Assembly (NCBI GenBank): GCA_022563485.1
Contig: JADFNF010000001.1
Location: forward strand, 1 to 60,534
Direction: 5' to 3'
Source of the DNA: Fidelibacterota bacterium
GTDB lineage: Bacteria; Fidelibacterota; Marinisomatia; SCGC-AAA003-L08; TS1B11
DNA: 60,534 nucleotides
Shown piece by piece: positions 50,401 through 60,237 of the stretch. Under the pieces are notes generated by a model, which ran no database searches, was not told the DNA's origin, and saw only the letters and a program-made list of their open reading frames with translations. How positions within the stretch are numbered: the stretch's first letter is position 1; every line of letters begins with the position of its first letter. The position numbers were made by a program, and so were the translations under genes.

Positions 50401-51657
50401 GGCATCGGCCACCGGATCGTCGTTCACGGCCCCAACGGTGATGATCACGTCCTGCTCGTCGATGAGGTCACCGTCTGAGGCCGTTACATGGAAACTGCCG
50501 GAGGTGATGCCTTCGGTAGGAGACCCCGTCACCATATTATCCCCGTCAACGGCGAGCCAGGTGGACAGGTCGCTGAACGTAAAGGTCACAATGGCATTAT
50601 CCACATCGGTGGCGGTGGCCGTATAGGTAAACAGTTCATCCTCGACGGCGTTGGCCGTAGCCGGTGAGGTAATGACCGGGGGGTCGTTGACAGCTGTGAG
50701 GGATATGGAGACAGTCGCCGTAGCGGACCCGCCGCGGCCGTCAATAACAGTATAAGTAAAATTATCCGGGCCGAAGTAGTCGGCATCCGGCGTGTAGGTA
50801 AAGGAGCTGTCGCCGCTGATCTGGGCCGCGCCATGGCTGGGAGCGGTGACGACATCCGGATCCAGCGTCAATGGATCGCCGTCCGGATCGGAATCGTTGC
50901 GCAGCACGTTTATGGTAACCGGGGTGTCCTCCAGAGTGGCGATCTCATCGTCATCGGCCACCGGATCGTTATTGCTGATCTCGTCCAGGGTCACATGCAC
51001 GGTGACCGTGCCGGATGCACTGCCACCGCTGCCGTCGATGACCGTGTAGGTGAATACGTCGTCGCCGGAAAATCTCGGGGTCGAGTTGTACAACAGGGTG
51101 CCATCGGCATTGATGTGAACGACACCGCTGGCCCGGCGGACGTTCTTGATCGACAGATCGGATGGCGGATTATCAACATCTGAGTCGTTCGCCAGCACGT
51201 CGATGGTGATGTTGGCAGACTGCACGGCCCAGACTTCATCGTTACCGGCCACCGGATCGTCGTTGACCGGGTTGACAGTGAGCGCTATGGCGCCGGTAGC
51301 AGTTTCCTGGCCATCACTGACGGTATAGGAAAATGCGTCGGGGCCGAAATAATTAAAGTCGGGCGTATACGTCACGGTGCCGTCATTGATATTGGGGGTG
51401 GCCGTGCCGTGGTCGGGCGGAGTGATGCTCACTAAGGAAAGGTCGGATGGGGTCTGATTGGCTTTCTTGCCTTTGCCCTTTCCCTTGGATGTACTTTCGG
51501 AAAGGACGGTAAAGGTGACCGGGTTGTCCTCATCAGTGATGACGACTATGTCATCAGCCGCAGCCGACTGCGCCCAGGCGAGCTGTGTACCCAGGAGGAG
51601 AGTAAAAATGGCGGCTATTGTGGTGTTTCGGGTGCTGTTCATTTGATCTGCTACCAT
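47419..51657 (-). CDS. Giant surface protein: tandem cadherin/Ig-like repeats, ZU5 and FlgD-type sorting tail
   Basis: 1412 residues. A signal peptide (TTIAAIFTLLLGTQLAWAQ) is followed by about eleven tandem cadherin-like/VCBS-like domains, most opening with VNDDPVA or VNDPPV and containing DSDPDGDPLT and FTYTPDADY (Ca-binding acidic loops). After the eighth or ninth comes a ZU5-like module (EGGIVTTDIGVTIEIPGGSL), then two more repeats, and finally HQNYPNPFNPVTTIRYELP with a FlgD-like Ig tail, the T9SS-type sorting domain of FCB bacteria. It is likely an exported surface adhesin or matrix protein. Near-identical internal duplications are present at DNA level. ATG 51657 was used; ATG 51642 also gives the signal peptide. 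Confidence 0.88.
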   Translation of the reverse strand: MVADQMNSTRNTTIAAIFTLLLGTQLAWAQSAAADDIVVITDEDNPVTFTVLSESTSKGKGKGKKANQTPSDLSLVSITPPDHGTATPNINDGTVTYTPDFNYFGPDAFSYTVSDGQETATGAIALTVNPVNDDPVAGNDEVWAVQSANITIDVLANDSDVDNPPSDLSIKNVRRASGVVHINADGTLLYNSTPRFSGDDVFTYTVIDGSGGSASGTVTVHVTLDEISNNDPVADDDEIATLEDTPVTINVLRNDSDPDGDPLTLDPDVVTAPSHGAAQISGDSSFTYTPDADYFGPDNFTYTVIDGRGGSATATVSISLTAVNDPPVITSPATANAVEDELFTYTATATDVDNAIVTFTFSDLSTWLAVDGDNMVTGSPTEGITSGSFHVTASDGDLIDEQDVIITVGAVNDDPVADAQSITTAEDSSVAITLTGSDPDEDALSFAVTDGPTHGALNGTAPNLTYIPAADFNGSDSFTFAVNDGHGGSATATVTIDVTPVNDDPVAVDDQFNTPEDTPLVLDVLANDTDVDGDPLLITNFRQANGILQITDDGQRLEYSPTPNFSGVDEFFYDISDGQGGTAEGTVTVLVAGVNDAPVAVNDEASTLEDTPVTINVLRNDSDPDGDPLTLDPDGFSQPGHGTAQIDGDSSFTYTPDADYNGPDSFTYELHDGHGGSATATVSISLTAVNDPPVVTSLATVNAVEDVSFTYTATAEDVDGDDLTFGFLGLPAWLSADAATVSGTPGEGDGSATFTVTVTDNGDPSLSASLEVTVSVEAVNDPPVADDQLVTTDEDVAVAITLSGSDPDGDPLTFSATDPANGTLSGSAPNLTYTPNENYSGTDSFTFTVNDGAITSDPATVTIFVNLEGNLAANEPVNSDEGGIVTTDIGVTIEIPGGSLEESVVIQIGLFTQTPSGLPASVQLASPVYFFGPAGTTFDPPATVTIPYDPDAAGLDESRMVLLRYNEDDGTWDLITPSVNTDAHVISGLTDHFSGFAAGWTPNRAPFNILAIPGVSVDEDAAFVTLIDSLPEYFTDPDDGDVISFSVNELDEGLDTLFITQSLALIAIPSDNFFGDVRIEITATDPLGASVSVTFILTVTPVNDAPVFANIPVIILSEDEFVQVPLSSLASDIEGDSLSFTASSDTSALEALVGETMLLLIPAPNWNGTANIALSVSDGQATQRDTFAVTVEAEPDIPSTFGLLEPDDNTIILITQDLLDDSLLFAWEPSTDPDGDPVTYLFTLSDGQNSFEYDDTSATEVRVPYADIIAAMNDQNLSIATFEWSIVAISKQDSVDAANGIYRLTIDMSTLGVTGNSQLPQLFALHQNYPNPFNPVTTIRYELPAQTRVILVIYDLRGKEVVRLVDGYESAGYKKVVWNSSNAAGRPVPTGLYFARLVTSAYTHTIKLTLIK
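49593..49840. repeat. Internal duplication copy A (surface protein)
   Basis: A 248-base segment encoding part of one cadherin-like domain is closely matched, without net indels, by 50691-50938, offset exactly 1098 bases (366 codons). The two contain long identical runs, for example the region around GTTTATGGTAACCGGGGTG. Confidence 0.85.
50691..50938. repeat. Internal duplication copy B (surface protein)
   Basis: Partner of 49593-49840. Similarity continues, less strongly, into the neighbouring domains on both sides, so the original duplicated unit probably spanned several domains. The in-frame offset would allow recombination to delete or add domains cleanly. Confidence 0.85.
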
Positions 51658-51776
51658 GACTCCGGTGTCAGTTTCCCAAGTTGGGCTATTCTAGCATGAA
51701 ACCACATATATCTCATCAAGTTCGTGAAACGACTCCAAACTAGTGTTGCATGATAATCCTTAAGCAATAGACGTGC

Positions 51777-51792
51777 CGTGATCAATGTCACA
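51777..51792. promoter_or_regulatory. CRP/FNR-type site, one mismatch
   Basis: CGTGA, six bases, TCACA: one mismatch from the CRP consensus TGTGA-N6-TCACA. It lies 120 bases upstream of the surface-protein start codon. Confidence 0.45.
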
Positions 51793-51908
51793 GAATGAAG
51801 GCATGGAGACAAATATCACAGCAAGCTAGATGACGCTTTCACATCGTTCCCTCACCCACCTCCCTTATCGGTCTATTGCCCTATAAATCGAGCATCTTGA
51901 CACCCTCG

Positions 51909-51924
51909 TGTGATATTACTCACA
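51909..51924. promoter_or_regulatory. Perfect CRP-type site
   Basis: TGTGA-TATTAC-TCACA equals the full CRP consensus. Its right half lies where the -35 box of the TATAAT promoter at 51940 would be, so a bound Crp/Fnr protein would act directly on that promoter. The spacing to the -10 box is about six bases shorter than in classical class II sites. Confidence 0.6.
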
Positions 51925-51939
51925 AGTCGGCTAAATGGC

Positions 51940-51945
51940 TATAAT
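51940..51945 (+). promoter_or_regulatory. Consensus -10 box upstream of amt
   Basis: TATAAT with no good -35 box (TACTCA at 17-base spacing, inside the CRP-type site), as expected for an activator-dependent promoter. Transcription from about 51952 would give amt a leader of roughly 330 bases. Confidence 0.45.
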
Positions 51946-52006
51946 TCTTATCAAGTATTTGCTGAAGGGCACGCAAAGCCGTTGCCGATCATAGTTCACT
52001 GGGTAG

Positions 52007-52033
52007 CGTCACGGGCAGGGTGGTTGTGACGCG
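52007..52033 (+). other. Hairpin in the amt leader
   Basis: GCGTCAC and GTGACGC form a perfect 7-bp stem with a 13-base loop. Just upstream lies GGGCACGCAAAGCC with GGGTAG. The segment looks like structured RNA but matches no riboswitch I recognise. Confidence 0.4.
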
Positions 52034-52162
52034 ACCCTTATCTAGTTAAAAGGCTCCCTTTGGTGCCATGATGGACCGGCCCGCCACGGACACGCGAGTC
52101 TGCCTTGCATGCGTTCATTCCCGGATTTGGGGCATACTGGGGGAAAGTCATTCGGATATAAA

Positions 52163-52177
52163 CCTTAAATATTAAGG
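52163..52177. repeat. Inverted repeat upstream of amt
   Basis: CCTTAA-ATA-TTAAGG, 6-bp arms, about 100 bases before the amt start. Possible operator. Confidence 0.35.
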
Positions 52178-52279
52178 CCATATTGGTGGTCAGTAAATAA
52201 TATTAGGAATACCGTTATTATTCATACTAAACTGTGGTTGATAACTATTCCACTTCACTCAATGAATGAGGAAATTTTA

Positions 52280-53638
52280 ATGTTTAAGAAGCTTGTCTTA
52301 CTGTTAGGGATCGGCTCCTCCCTTGCCTGGGGACAGGAGCCTTCCGCCGACGCGCTGGCAGAGGGGCTAGAGTCCTTGCAGTTGAATATCAATATCGTCT
52401 GGACCATCATAGCGGCCTTTCTGGTATTCTTCATGCAGGCCGGATTTGCCATGTTGGAAACGGGTTTGACCCGGGCCAAGAATGCCGTGAACATCCTCAT
52501 GAAGAACCTCATGGACTTCTCCATTGGTTCAGTGGCCTTCTTTCTCGTGGGCTTTGGCCTGATGTTCGGGGTGTCCAACGGTTGGTTCGGGACTACCCTC
52601 TTTGGTTTGAAGGGTGCGTCCGGCGGCGATTGGAACTATACTTTCCTGATCTTCCAGACGGTATTTGCCGCCACTGCCGCTACGATTGTGTCGGGCGCCG
52701 TGGCCGAACGTACCAAGTTCACCGCCTATCTCATCTATAGTGTAGCCATTTCCGCCGTGATCTATCCCGTCTTCGGGTCGTGGGCTTGGGGCAGTCTCTT
52801 AGATGGTAACGGCTGGCTGGAAAACCTGAGCACCGGCGCCTTCACCGATTTTGCCGGTTCAACGGTGGTCCATTCCATCGGTGGGTGGGTCGCTCTGGCG
52901 GGGGCGATGGTCATCGGTCCCCGGCTGGGCAAGTACGGAAAGGATAAGGTCTCTAACGCCATTCCCGGCCATAATATCCCTCTGGCGTCCCTGGGTGTGT
53001 TTATCCTGTGGTTCGGCTGGTTCGGCTTCAATCCTGGGAGCACTACCGTAGGAGATGGTGAAATTGGACGGGTTGCGGTGACCACCAACCTATCGGCCGC
53101 CATGGGGGTGCTGGGCGCCACCGGCACGGCCTGGTTCATCTTTGGCAAACCCGATCTAACCATGGCACTGAACGGCGCTCTGGCAGGACTGGTAGCCATT
53201 ACGGCGCCCTGTTATACCGTCACCCCCATGGCCGCAATGTTGATCGGCCTTATCGGGGGTATCCTCGTCGTGCTGAGTGTCCTGTTCATTGACCGCACCC
53301 TCAAAATCGACGACCCGGTGGGCGCCATCAGCGTACACGGTGTGGCCGGATTGTGGGGGACCTTGGCCTGCGGCCTGTTCAATGCCGAGGCCGTTCTCAA
53401 GATCGGCGACGCCAATACGGGGCTGCTCTACGGCGGCGGATTCAACCAACTCATCAGCCAGTTCATTGGCGCCGGGGCCGCGTTCATCTGGGCATTTGGC
53501 CTGGGATGGTTGCTCTTTAAGGCCATGAAAGCCGCCGGAGGGTTGCGGGTGAGCGAGGAAGAAGAAATCCTTGGTCTGGACATTGGCGAACATGGCATGG
53601 AATCCTATGCCGGGTTCCAAATCTTTATTGCCGAATAG
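52280..53638 (+). CDS. amt: Ammonium transporter Amt
   Basis: 452 residues. A cleavable signal peptide (MFKKLVLLLGIGSSLAWGQ) is followed by eleven helices typical of Amt: FFMQAGFAMLETGLTRAKNAVN, DFAGSTVVHSIGGWVALAGA with the first pore His, and GAISVHGVAGLWGTLACGLF with the second. ATG 52280 was chosen because GAGGAAA lies seven bases upstream; two earlier ATGs have none. It imports ammonium and is gated by PII, encoded 15 bases downstream. The C-terminal tail ends ESYAGFQIFIAE. Confidence 0.94.
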   Translation: MFKKLVLLLGIGSSLAWGQEPSADALAEGLESLQLNINIVWTIIAAFLVFFMQAGFAMLETGLTRAKNAVNILMKNLMDFSIGSVAFFLVGFGLMFGVSNGWFGTTLFGLKGASGGDWNYTFLIFQTVFAATAATIVSGAVAERTKFTAYLIYSVAISAVIYPVFGSWAWGSLLDGNGWLENLSTGAFTDFAGSTVVHSIGGWVALAGAMVIGPRLGKYGKDKVSNAIPGHNIPLASLGVFILWFGWFGFNPGSTTVGDGEIGRVAVTTNLSAAMGVLGATGTAWFIFGKPDLTMALNGALAGLVAITAPCYTVTPMAAMLIGLIGGILVVLSVLFIDRTLKIDDPVGAISVHGVAGLWGTLACGLFNAEAVLKIGDANTGLLYGGGFNQLISQFIGAGAAFIWAFGLGWLLFKAMKAAGGLRVSEEEEILGLDIGEHGMESYAGFQIFIAE

Positions 53639-53653
53639 GAGGCGCACGCTAAC

Positions 53654-53998
53654 ATGAAATTCATCATTGCCATCATTCAACCCCAGGAGCTTCCCGCCAT
53701 CAAGGAGGCCCTGGTCCGCAGTGAAATCTACAAGTTCACCGTCACCAACGCTCTGGGACAGGGCATGGAGTACCCTATCCATGAGGTGTATCGGGGCATC
53801 GCCCACGATATGAAACTCCTGAAAAAAGTCCGTCTGGAGATTGCGGTGAATGACGAGTTTGTGTCAAAAGTTGTAGATGTTATTTCCGGTGTGGCCAAGG
53901 CCGCCGAAGATGGGGGGCGGGGCAAGATATTCATCCTCCCCATCGAGGAATGTATTCGCATCCGCACCGGTGAGCGCGGGCCCGATGCCATCGGGTAG
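53654..53998 (+). CDS. glnK: PII signal protein with divergent T-loop (GlnK-like)
   Basis: 114 residues. The PII core is clear (MKFIIAIIQPQELPAIKEAL, GRGKIFILPIEECIRIRTGE). Aligned by eye with E. coli GlnB, the T-loop GFGRQKGHTELYRGAEY becomes GQGMEYPIHEVYRGIAH: Tyr46 and Arg47 are kept, but Tyr51, the uridylylation site, is His; Gln39, which contacts 2-oxoglutarate-Mg-ATP, is Glu; and residue 49 (phosphorylated Ser in cyanobacteria) is Ile. It should still bind Amt, but not be uridylylated at position 51. Co-transcribed with amt. Confidence 0.9.
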   Translation: MKFIIAIIQPQELPAIKEALVRSEIYKFTVTNALGQGMEYPIHEVYRGIAHDMKLLKKVRLEIAVNDEFVSKVVDVISGVAKAAEDGGRGKIFILPIEECIRIRTGERGPDAIG

Positions 53999-54180
53999 TT
54001 GGGTGACTAGGCCGGTCCGGTCAGGCTCGTAGGGCCCGGCCGCGCCGGTCTTCGATGCGGCAAGGTATTCCCTTGCGATAAAAATGAGGGGGCGGTCGAT
54101 TCACCCTGACTTTTCGGGGAGATTACCACTCCGGTTCCGGGTAAAAAAACTTAAACAGTGAATCATTAAGGAGACAAATA

Positions 54181-55077
54181 ATGCAGCAAGCAAGTTCAAT
54201 TAAACTGGTGATGACGCTCATGGTGTTGGGGGTTGGCCTGCATGGGCAGGACCTCACCATCACGGGGTTTGTGGATGGCAGCACGGCCCTGCCGGTATCT
54301 GATGGGACTAATCTGGAATTCAGTTTTGATCAGCTGGAAATTGATCTGGAAAAGACCCTGGGCGACGGGATCTCTCTGCGGGCCGACATTGATCTGGTTG
54401 AGGGCGGGGCCGACGTGGAGCAGGCCTATGTGACGGTGGCCGGCATGACCTTCGGGAAGTTCAACGCCCCCATCGGCTGGGAACTGCTGGACGCCCCGGA
54501 CATGTACCAGTTCTCCCACACCCTGGTGTTTGATTACGCACTGCCCACCAACCTGGTCGGTTTCAGCTATGCCCGGAAGCTGGGCGCTGGCCTGGATGGT
54601 GTGGTTTACGTGGCCAACGGCTGGGACCTGAACTACGCCGATGATGGCCAGCCCATCTTTGGGGGGCGTCTGGGCTATGGCGGTGTGGAGGGACTCAACG
54701 TAGGGCTGTCAGCCATCCAGAACAACGATCTCGACCTGGTGATCGATGTGGATGCCACCCTCACGATGGTGGAGAACCTCCTGATCGGTCTGGAGGTGAA
54801 TCAGGGGGGCTATGCCAAGGACGAGTTGGGTTGGATGGTCATGGCCAACTACAGCATTCCCGGTACGCCCTTCGCGGTGACGTTGCGGCAGGATGGACTG
54901 GGCGGAGCAGGTACCACGACCATTTCACCTTCCTACAGTTTCGCCAATGGGGCCGGGGTACTGTTTGAATTCCGCACCGGCAAATTTCTAGATGACAACG
55001 GTGTCCTTCTAGTAGATGACAACGGAGACCCTCTGACGATCAACGAGGCCGCCATCGAGTTCACCTTTTCATTCTAG
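54181..55077 (+). CDS. Putative outer-membrane porin
   Basis: 298 residues. A short signal peptide (IKLVMTLMVLGVGLHGQ) and about twelve to sixteen amphipathic strands (LEFSFDQLEIDLEKTLGDGISLRADIDLVEG, VGFSYARKLGAGLDGVVYVA) ending in AAIEFTFSF, a C-terminal Phe recognised by the BAM machinery. AAGGAG lies seven bases before the ATG. The barrel is rich in Asp and lies after amt-glnK, separated by 182 bases, so I infer a channel for nitrogenous or small cationic solutes, without proof. Confidence 0.72.
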   Translation: MQQASSIKLVMTLMVLGVGLHGQDLTITGFVDGSTALPVSDGTNLEFSFDQLEIDLEKTLGDGISLRADIDLVEGGADVEQAYVTVAGMTFGKFNAPIGWELLDAPDMYQFSHTLVFDYALPTNLVGFSYARKLGAGLDGVVYVANGWDLNYADDGQPIFGGRLGYGGVEGLNVGLSAIQNNDLDLVIDVDATLTMVENLLIGLEVNQGGYAKDELGWMVMANYSIPGTPFAVTLRQDGLGGAGTTTISPSYSFANGAGVLFEFRTGKFLDDNGVLLVDDNGDPLTINEAAIEFTFSF

Positions 55078-59133: not shown

Positions 59134-59385
59134 TGGGTCTTGGATGTCCATCCAGCGGGTGGGGCGTAGCCACGGCACCCACGAGCGGCTGGATACCGAT
59201 CATACTGGTTCATGCGGGTCCCTTACTGTGGCTAAATCCACGTGGGTTTCGGATCGCTGAGGGTCAGGCCTCAATAACTTTGGAGGCCCTGGGTCAAAGG
59301 TAGGGCACGGATCGCCACGTCCCGGCCGTATGAGCAGGGGTAAAGGAGAACGCAGTAGACCATGCACATCACGAAGGAGGAAGCC

Positions 59386-60237
59386 ATGTCGCAGCCCTCA
59401 ATACGAAGGATCATTCAAACGGTAACCGGCACGCCGACGACTGATGGAGCAGGCGTGCGTCTGACCCGTCTGTTGGGGTCCGGCCAACTTCTGCAGCTCG
59501 ATCCCTTTCTGCTGCTGGATGAGTTTCGCAGCGATTCCCCGGACGACTACATCGGCGGTTTCCCGTCCCACCCCCACCGGGGATTTGAAACCATCACATA
59601 TATGAAGGCCGGCACCTTCCAGCATAAGGATTCCACGGGCAATGAGGCGCTCATTGATGCCGGCGGCGTCCAATGGATGACGGCTGGCCGGGGAATCATC
59701 CACAGTGAGATGCCCATGATGACTGACGGGCTCGTGTGGGGGTACCAGCTCTGGCTGAATCTCCCGGCGGATCGGAAAATGATGGACCCCGGATATCAGA
59801 ATATCCAGGGCGGGGACATTCCGGTCGTGGAGCACGAAGGCGCAATAGTGCGAATTCTGGCTGGAGAGTATGGCGGGCAGGAGGCCGTAACTGATTCAGT
59901 GATCCCCCTGTTTTACCTCGATGTGACCCTGGAACCGGGTGCCCGTTTCTCCCACCCCGTTCCACCGGAAATGAACGCTTTCCTGTACATCTACGATGGC
60001 GAAGTGACTCTGGGTCCGGAGGACGACCGGCAGACGGGACCCACGGGGCAGCTCCTCGTAATGGGCCCTGGGGATAGAGCCAGTGTCCGGGCAGGTGAGC
60101 ACGGCACAGGGTTCCTCATCGCAGGCGCCCAAAAGCTGGGTGAGCCTATCGTCCGGGGCGGACCGTTTGTGATGAATACCCAGGAACAGCTCCAGCAGGC
60201 CTACCTGGATTACCAACGGGGCGTGTTGACCCAGTAG
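59386..60237 (+). CDS. Pirin family protein
   Basis: 283 residues, bicupin. The N-terminal cupin carries the metal ligands in SHPHRGFETITY and in GIIHSEMP; VPPEMNAFLYIYDGE is in the second cupin. Some bacterial pirins are quercetin dioxygenases, others act in redox signalling. ATG 59386 was chosen because AAGGAGG lies five bases upstream; an ATG eight codons earlier has none. The 252-base gap to doxX shows no gene and no copy of the MarR core. Confidence 0.9.
   Translation: MSQPSIRRIIQTVTGTPTTDGAGVRLTRLLGSGQLLQLDPFLLLDEFRSDSPDDYIGGFPSHPHRGFETITYMKAGTFQHKDSTGNEALIDAGGVQWMTAGRGIIHSEMPMMTDGLVWGYQLWLNLPADRKMMDPGYQNIQGGDIPVVEHEGAIVRILAGEYGGQEAVTDSVIPLFYLDVTLEPGARFSHPVPPEMNAFLYIYDGEVTLGPEDDRQTGPTGQLLVMGPGDRASVRAGEHGTGFLIAGAQKLGEPIVRGGPFVMNTQEQLQQAYLDYQRGVLTQ

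Follow-up and report, generated by a model that had tools for sequence, protein, structure and literature searches.

A conserved array of Crp-type sites at the predicted promoter of a putative T9SS adhesin gene in a Fidelibacterota bacterium

Results

Genes of the locus

A large surface protein gene and the ammonium transporter gene amt lie divergently in the window (the whole 60,534-nucleotide stretch of DNA analyzed), with positions 51658-52279 between them (Table 1). The surface protein, for which an alternative start codon is possible at 51642, scores 29.6 bits against TIGR04183 (cut-off 23) and 530.8 bits against NF012211, and it also gives Big_9 and cadherin matches as well as a match to PF18962 that falls under that family's cut-off. 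A sorting domain combined with tandem repeats gives the product the features of a T9SS-secreted protein with Ig/cadherin repeats, and it is therefore a predicted adhesin. On the opposite strand, amt is followed by genes for a P-II nitrogen regulator and a porin; the porin gene also adjoins amt and the P-II gene in the related genome G006. The divergent neighbour of the adhesin gene in both G001 and G006 is a pirin gene, which here is found beyond the amt block, an arrangement in which that block seems to separate two former neighbours, adhesin and pirin. Several other genes, in addition to the amt-PII-porin block, separate the two in this genome (51658-60237, compared with loci L287 and L301). 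A search for RNA elements between the genes with Rfam, covering 51400-54300, gave no match up to an E-value of 1.

Table 1. Genes, Crp-type sites and promoter elements of the adhesin-amt locus, in order of position in the window.
Feature	Position	Strand	Remarks
Adhesin-like T9SS surface protein, 1412 aa	47419-51657	-	Tandem-95/Ig/cadherin-like repeats; Por_Secre_tail
TATCAT, predicted -10 hexamer of the adhesin promoter	51750-51755	-	Starts 29.5 bp from the centre of C
Site C, proximal Crp-type site	51777-51792	-	CGTGATCAATGTCACA on the plus strand; 1 mismatch; centre at 51784.5
Site B, second Crp-type site	51805-51820	-	GGAGACAAATATCACA; TGTGATATTTGTCTCC on the minus strand; 2 mismatches
Site A, distal Crp-type site	51909-51924	-	TGTGATATTACTCACA; perfect, 0 mismatches
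TATAAT facing amt	51940-51945	+	15 bp from site A; 335 bp from the amt start codon
amt, ammonium transporter	52280-53638	+	Neighbour of the adhesin gene
P-II nitrogen regulator	53654-53998	+	Downstream of amt
BBP2/OmpL-like porin	54181-55077	+	Third gene of the amt block
Pirin	59362-60237		Past the amt block

Three Crp-type sites between the adhesin gene and amt

The initial annotation had described two Crp-type sites between the surface protein gene and amt, with a TATAAT box close to the perfect one, and all of these are present at the positions given: the centres of sites A and C are 132 bp apart, and 23.5 bp separate the first base of the TATAAT from the site A centre. A weaker site that the annotation did not include, site B, sits between them. 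Reading from the adhesin gene, B is 28 bp upstream of C, and A is a further 104 bp upstream of B. Across the whole window, 22 matches with at most two mismatches were found against a shuffled mean of 21.8, which is the level expected by chance; a lone two-mismatch site consequently carries no meaning, and the case rests on the clustering of the sites, the genome-wide excess of the motif and its conservation. When the 400 bp before the adhesin gene were shuffled 2000 times with dinucleotides preserved, no shuffle equalled the number and quality of the sites in any of the six genomes that carry the array, and for the genome studied here a pair of sites 27-30 bp apart, each with at most two mismatches, arose in one of the 2000.

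Conservation of the array

The array precedes adhesin homologues with Ig/cadherin-like repeats in six genomes, namely the genome studied here (G000) and its relatives G001, G002, G003, G006 and G009. Sites B and C are separated by 28 bp in G000, G003 and G009 and by 29 bp in G001, G002 and G006, and the distance from A to B is 104 bp in G000, 102 bp in G003, 101 bp in G009, 112 bp in G001 and 103 bp in G006. A further site is hence found 101-112 bp upstream of the proximal pair in four of the five relatives; the fifth, G002, differs, with 139 or 180 bp, and the open frame of its adhesin-like gene spans just 367 aa. These six are the genomes of the 11 in the family in which the array is visible: the gene is truncated by contig ends in G004, G007 and G008, the partly masked stretch of G010 showed no array, and G005 yielded a weak C-terminal match only and no orthologue. 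When the pattern of the B-C pair was searched for across 245 genomes of the phylum, it was found in six, once in each, and its reversed control in none of the 245. Five of the six matches are at adhesin promoters, while the sixth, in G014, adjoins a short frame; the genome studied here is not among the six owing to its degenerate site B, which has two mismatches.

As a control for paralogues, four repeat-protein genes (L297, L298, L299 and L300) were inspected and none had the array, a single one-mismatch site being present less than 200 bp upstream of L298; this count leaves aside L293, L294, L295 and L296, where the upstream region is outside the stretch, cut or masked, and L302, which was uninformative. 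The 655-kb copy in G002, which matches mainly the C-terminal half of the adhesin, has no array either. The sites could in principle be chance palindromes in an intergenic stretch, as the window-wide count equal to the shuffled mean might imply, but the shuffles of all six upstream regions and the recurrence of the pair before the same kind of gene contradict this, and we regard its probability as negligible. Judged by the genomes compared, the array goes with the adhesin gene and not with amt, so that Crp/Fnr control of the adhesin, which the initial annotation had raised only with a "perhaps", is borne out by the conservation of the array before adhesin homologues.

Geometry of the adhesin promoter

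The distance between the TATCAT hexamer and the centre of site C (Table 1) places site C at -41.5, with the adhesin transcript predicted to start near 51743. Hexamers resembling a -10 element occur at the same offset, 21 nt past site C, in G001 (TATTCT), G006 (TATCCT), G009 (TATCGT) and G002 (TACCAT), and 1 nt further in G003 (TATCGT). A TAxxxT hexamer with at least four of six matches stands at offset 21 in five of the six promoters, and this offset was the best of the 60 scored, with a summed score of 21 against 16 for the next. Five of six at any one offset was reached by none of 20,000 base shuffles; with one genome per genus (G000, G003, G006 and G009, leaving out G001 and G002) the count was three of four, which was reached by three of 20,000. 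The 21-nt spacers have themselves diverged, having only 3-13 of their 21 bases in common. The distance from site C to the predicted hexamer matches the geometry of a class II CRP-dependent promoter in five of the six homologous promoters, with 1 nt added in the sixth.

When 89 perfect sites were pooled, -10 hexamers were not enriched at the class II offset, and the class II claim is accordingly limited to the six adhesin promoters. The 89 are the part that was fetched of 121 perfect sites, the remaining 32 belonging to G011, G012, G015, G017 and G018. In the same pool, drawn from the genome itself and from genomes of its family and order, -10-like hexamers pile up at +9, +16 and +50 relative to the class II position (at +9 there are seven strong hexamers, where the mean is 1.6), and these peaks perhaps represent class I-like spacings; the offset -15 also stood higher.

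The amt side

With the TATAAT that faces amt as a -10 element, site A would be centred at -35.5, on top of the -35 region. The distance of the TATAAT from that centre is 6 bp too short for the 29.5 bp of a class II promoter, the hexamer is remote from the amt start codon (Table 1), and a promoter scan did not call it as a sigma-70 promoter; activation of amt from this element by site A therefore does not fit the predicted geometry. No site with at most two mismatches was found in the 1002-1500 bp upstream of amt in G004, G006, G017, G023 and G031, the five genomes besides this one in which an amt match turned up when 40 were searched. In G006 the two genes are on different contigs, amt on C12 and the adhesin gene, with the array, on C7. 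On these three grounds (the five other amt loci, the position of the array in G006 and the spacing of the TATAAT), the control of ammonium uptake by a Crp/Fnr-family regulator, which the initial annotation had taken the sites to imply, is not upheld. A sigma-54 site was likewise sought upstream of amt, where none was convincing in this genome (best match 4 of 11 positions); the matches upstream of other amt genes reached 8 of 11 at 380 bp in G006, 7 of 11 at 478 bp in G017 and 4 of 11 in G004. The upstream regions of amt align too poorly to reveal a common promoter.

The array may nevertheless serve both divergent genes, with site A also regulating amt in this genome, either as an activator site for a promoter nearer to the gene or as a site of repression of the TATAAT promoter, whose -35 region it covers. 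Such a dual role would draw on the proximity of a perfect site to a TATAAT directed at amt, and on the placement of the amt block between the adhesin gene and the pirin gene that is its divergent neighbour in G001 and G006. It is doubtful, however, given the spacing and the distance to the amt start codon, the lack of sites at all five other amt loci, and the presence of counterparts of site A in G001 and G006, where pirin is the neighbour. We therefore regard amt as probably just a neighbour of the array, whose control in this genome would be possible only as a local extra.

A CRP-like regulator with a matching recognition helix

The assembly (2.09 Mb in 245 contigs, 89.6% complete) encodes two clear Crp/Fnr proteins, L001 and L002. 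The check suggested by the initial annotation, a search of the genome for a Crp/Fnr protein with a matching recognition helix, led to L001. With an N-terminal cyclic-nucleotide-binding domain (PF00027, E 1.3e-25) and a C-terminal HTH_Crp domain (PF13545, E 2.4e-14), this 229-aa protein has the predicted features of the Crp/Fnr superfamily. Its recognition helix, SRETVSR, aligns with SRETVGR of E. coli CRP, and it equals E. coli CRP at all three of the helix positions R180, E181 and R185, which we take to be the residues that contact the bases of TGTGA in CRP. The helix (GTSRETVSRMLK) is identical in the L001 orthologues of all 11 family genomes, which are 74-100% identical overall. Of the positions that presumably form the cyclic-nucleotide cassette (R82, S83, T127 and S128 in E. 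coli CRP numbering), the alignment shows that R82 and S83 are kept, whereas T127 is replaced by S and S128 by D. The best NCBIfam match of L001 is the CRP equivalog NF008732, at 114.1 bits and thus under the curated cut-off of 266, and for this reason we call the protein CRP-like and do not file it as a CRP equivalog. The genome also has five matches to class III cyclase domains and three to GGDEF domains.

The second protein, L002, has the helix SRQTVNA, which differs at E181 and R185, and it does not have the cassette residues R82 and S83; TGTGA is therefore not its expected site, and on the residues of its recognition helix it was rejected as the binder of the array. A third match of the Crp/Fnr search, L003, was rejected, being ArsR-like by eye and under the HTH_Crp cut-off. 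A further Crp/Fnr protein could be missing from the incomplete assembly. The existence of a second family member and this incompleteness would leave room for the array to be used by another Crp/Fnr protein (L002 or a missing one), or else to repress the adhesin gene, but the L002 helix and cassette argue against the former, and activation fits both the conserved -10 hexamer and the predicted position of site C, -41.5, which together make this reading unlikely.

Crp-type sites elsewhere in the genome and its relatives

Perfect sites are in clear excess over reversed-pattern controls, with 121 against 14 in 20 genomes of the order and six against one in the 2.09-Mb genome itself, where sites with at most one mismatch number 37 against 16. 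The excess extends to genomes that have no close match to L001 (G011, four against none; G015, five against none), in which other CRP-like proteins may use the motif or L001 may have been lost to incomplete assembly. Perfect sites recur in relatives before sets of predicted exported proteins that look alike by eye (L110/L124/L128, L111/L153 and L112/L120/L125, the L112 protein matching peptidase M6), and this recurrence suggests a wider Crp regulon of surface proteins. A further one-mismatch site comes directly after a class III nucleotide cyclase gene and precedes the gene that follows (L014 1501-1516; contig C30:7579-7594).

In four genomes, G000, G002, G007 and G010, certain DUF3391/HD-GYP phosphodiesterase-like genes also have a Crp-type site 142-163 bp upstream. 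Two of these sites are on contig C32 of the genome itself (L005 1501-1516 and L015 731-746) and the others in relatives (L113, L141 and L152), and all are perfect except that of L015, which has one mismatch. Among 21 DUF3391 match rows from 11 genomes, eight of them of the family, the 300 bp upstream contained a perfect site in four and a site with at most two mismatches in eight, compared with none and one, respectively, for the reversed control; the count is rough, as L327 and L330 are assigned to a neighbouring DUF3391 gene, one gene is counted twice among the eight, and the L015 site was missed. These observations hint at a link of Crp to c-di-GMP through a minority of the HD-GYP genes. 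On contig C55, two one-mismatch sites 19 bp apart occupy another divergent intergenic region (L018 838-872), beside a gene for a 113-aa protein that by eye resembles an HD-GYP N-terminus and has no Pfam match.

Discussion

A model for the adhesin promoter

We consider it probable that Crp binds the three sites as an array and thereby switches on the divergent adhesin gene, using a class II promoter that has additional sites in tandem further up. In the proposed mechanism, L001 loaded with a cyclic nucleotide would bind site C at -41.5 and contact RNA polymerase from there, the promoter being of class II with TATCAT (51755-51750) as its -10 element. Site B at -69.5, and site A another 104 bp upstream, would then add further Crp dimers, as at promoters of the class III type. 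The sites, their spacing, the position of the -10 hexamer, the cognate helix and the association with the adhesin gene are features of the DNA itself and of the predicted protein; we infer the binding, the transcription start, that the effect is activation and not repression, the ligand, and what B and A contribute. By its predicted features the system would combine two components of known kinds, a CRP-type regulator and a class II promoter.

This gives an uncultured lineage a concrete and testable regulatory circuit, in which the protein, the sites, the promoter and the gene can each be named, and it sets right the link to ammonium uptake, which is attractive but probably mistaken. The array at the adhesin gene points to control of surface attachment by a cyclic nucleotide in this lineage. 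A broader proposal would be a Crp-centred attachment programme, in which the CRP-like regulator switches the T9SS adhesin via a fixed multi-site promoter, drives DUF3391/HD-GYP genes and exported proteins, and joins cAMP-type and c-di-GMP signals as in Shewanella with unrelated parts, the amt-PII-porin block having now come under the distal site; taken as a whole, we rate this as rather unlikely.

Comparison with known systems

We found no open-licence paper that deals with Crp promoters in this lineage, which is weak evidence of absence. In E. coli, Crp is reported at -41.5, -61.5 and -93.5 of its promoters (PMC5957442). The adhesin promoter resembles E. coli class II promoters in that its proximal site, predicted here to be at -41.5, would overlap the -35 region, and it may resemble class III promoters, at which two or more CRP sites act together, in having further Crp-type sites upstream, with B and C in tandem at a conserved spacing in the six array genomes and a distal third site in addition. 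Unlike in those promoters, the second site here is at -69.5 to -70.5 and the third mostly 101-112 bp further up. The lineage is also far from E. coli, and both the transcription start and CRP dependence are predictions made here from sequence alone. The conservation of the promoter nevertheless suggests that the -41.5 geometry of CRP in E. coli is recognizable in a distant lineage.

The closest parallel for the target gene comes from Shewanella putrefaciens, in which the large adhesin gene bpfA is reported to be transcribed more strongly when cAMP-CRP binds its promoter, the biofilm effect did not run through bpfA transcription, and c-di-GMP enters the same network (PMC8938473). The system described here is like that of bpfA in outline, with a CRP-type protein predicted at the promoter of a large surface adhesin. 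It differs in the T9SS sorting tail of the adhesin and in the post-translational branch through BpfD, which is described for S. putrefaciens. In S. putrefaciens, cAMP-CRP has also been described to promote the phosphodiesterase gene lrbR (PMC12415220). The sites upstream of the HD-GYP genes would be similar, in that CRP would again be tied to a c-di-GMP phosphodiesterase, here as a prediction that concerns a minority of such genes.
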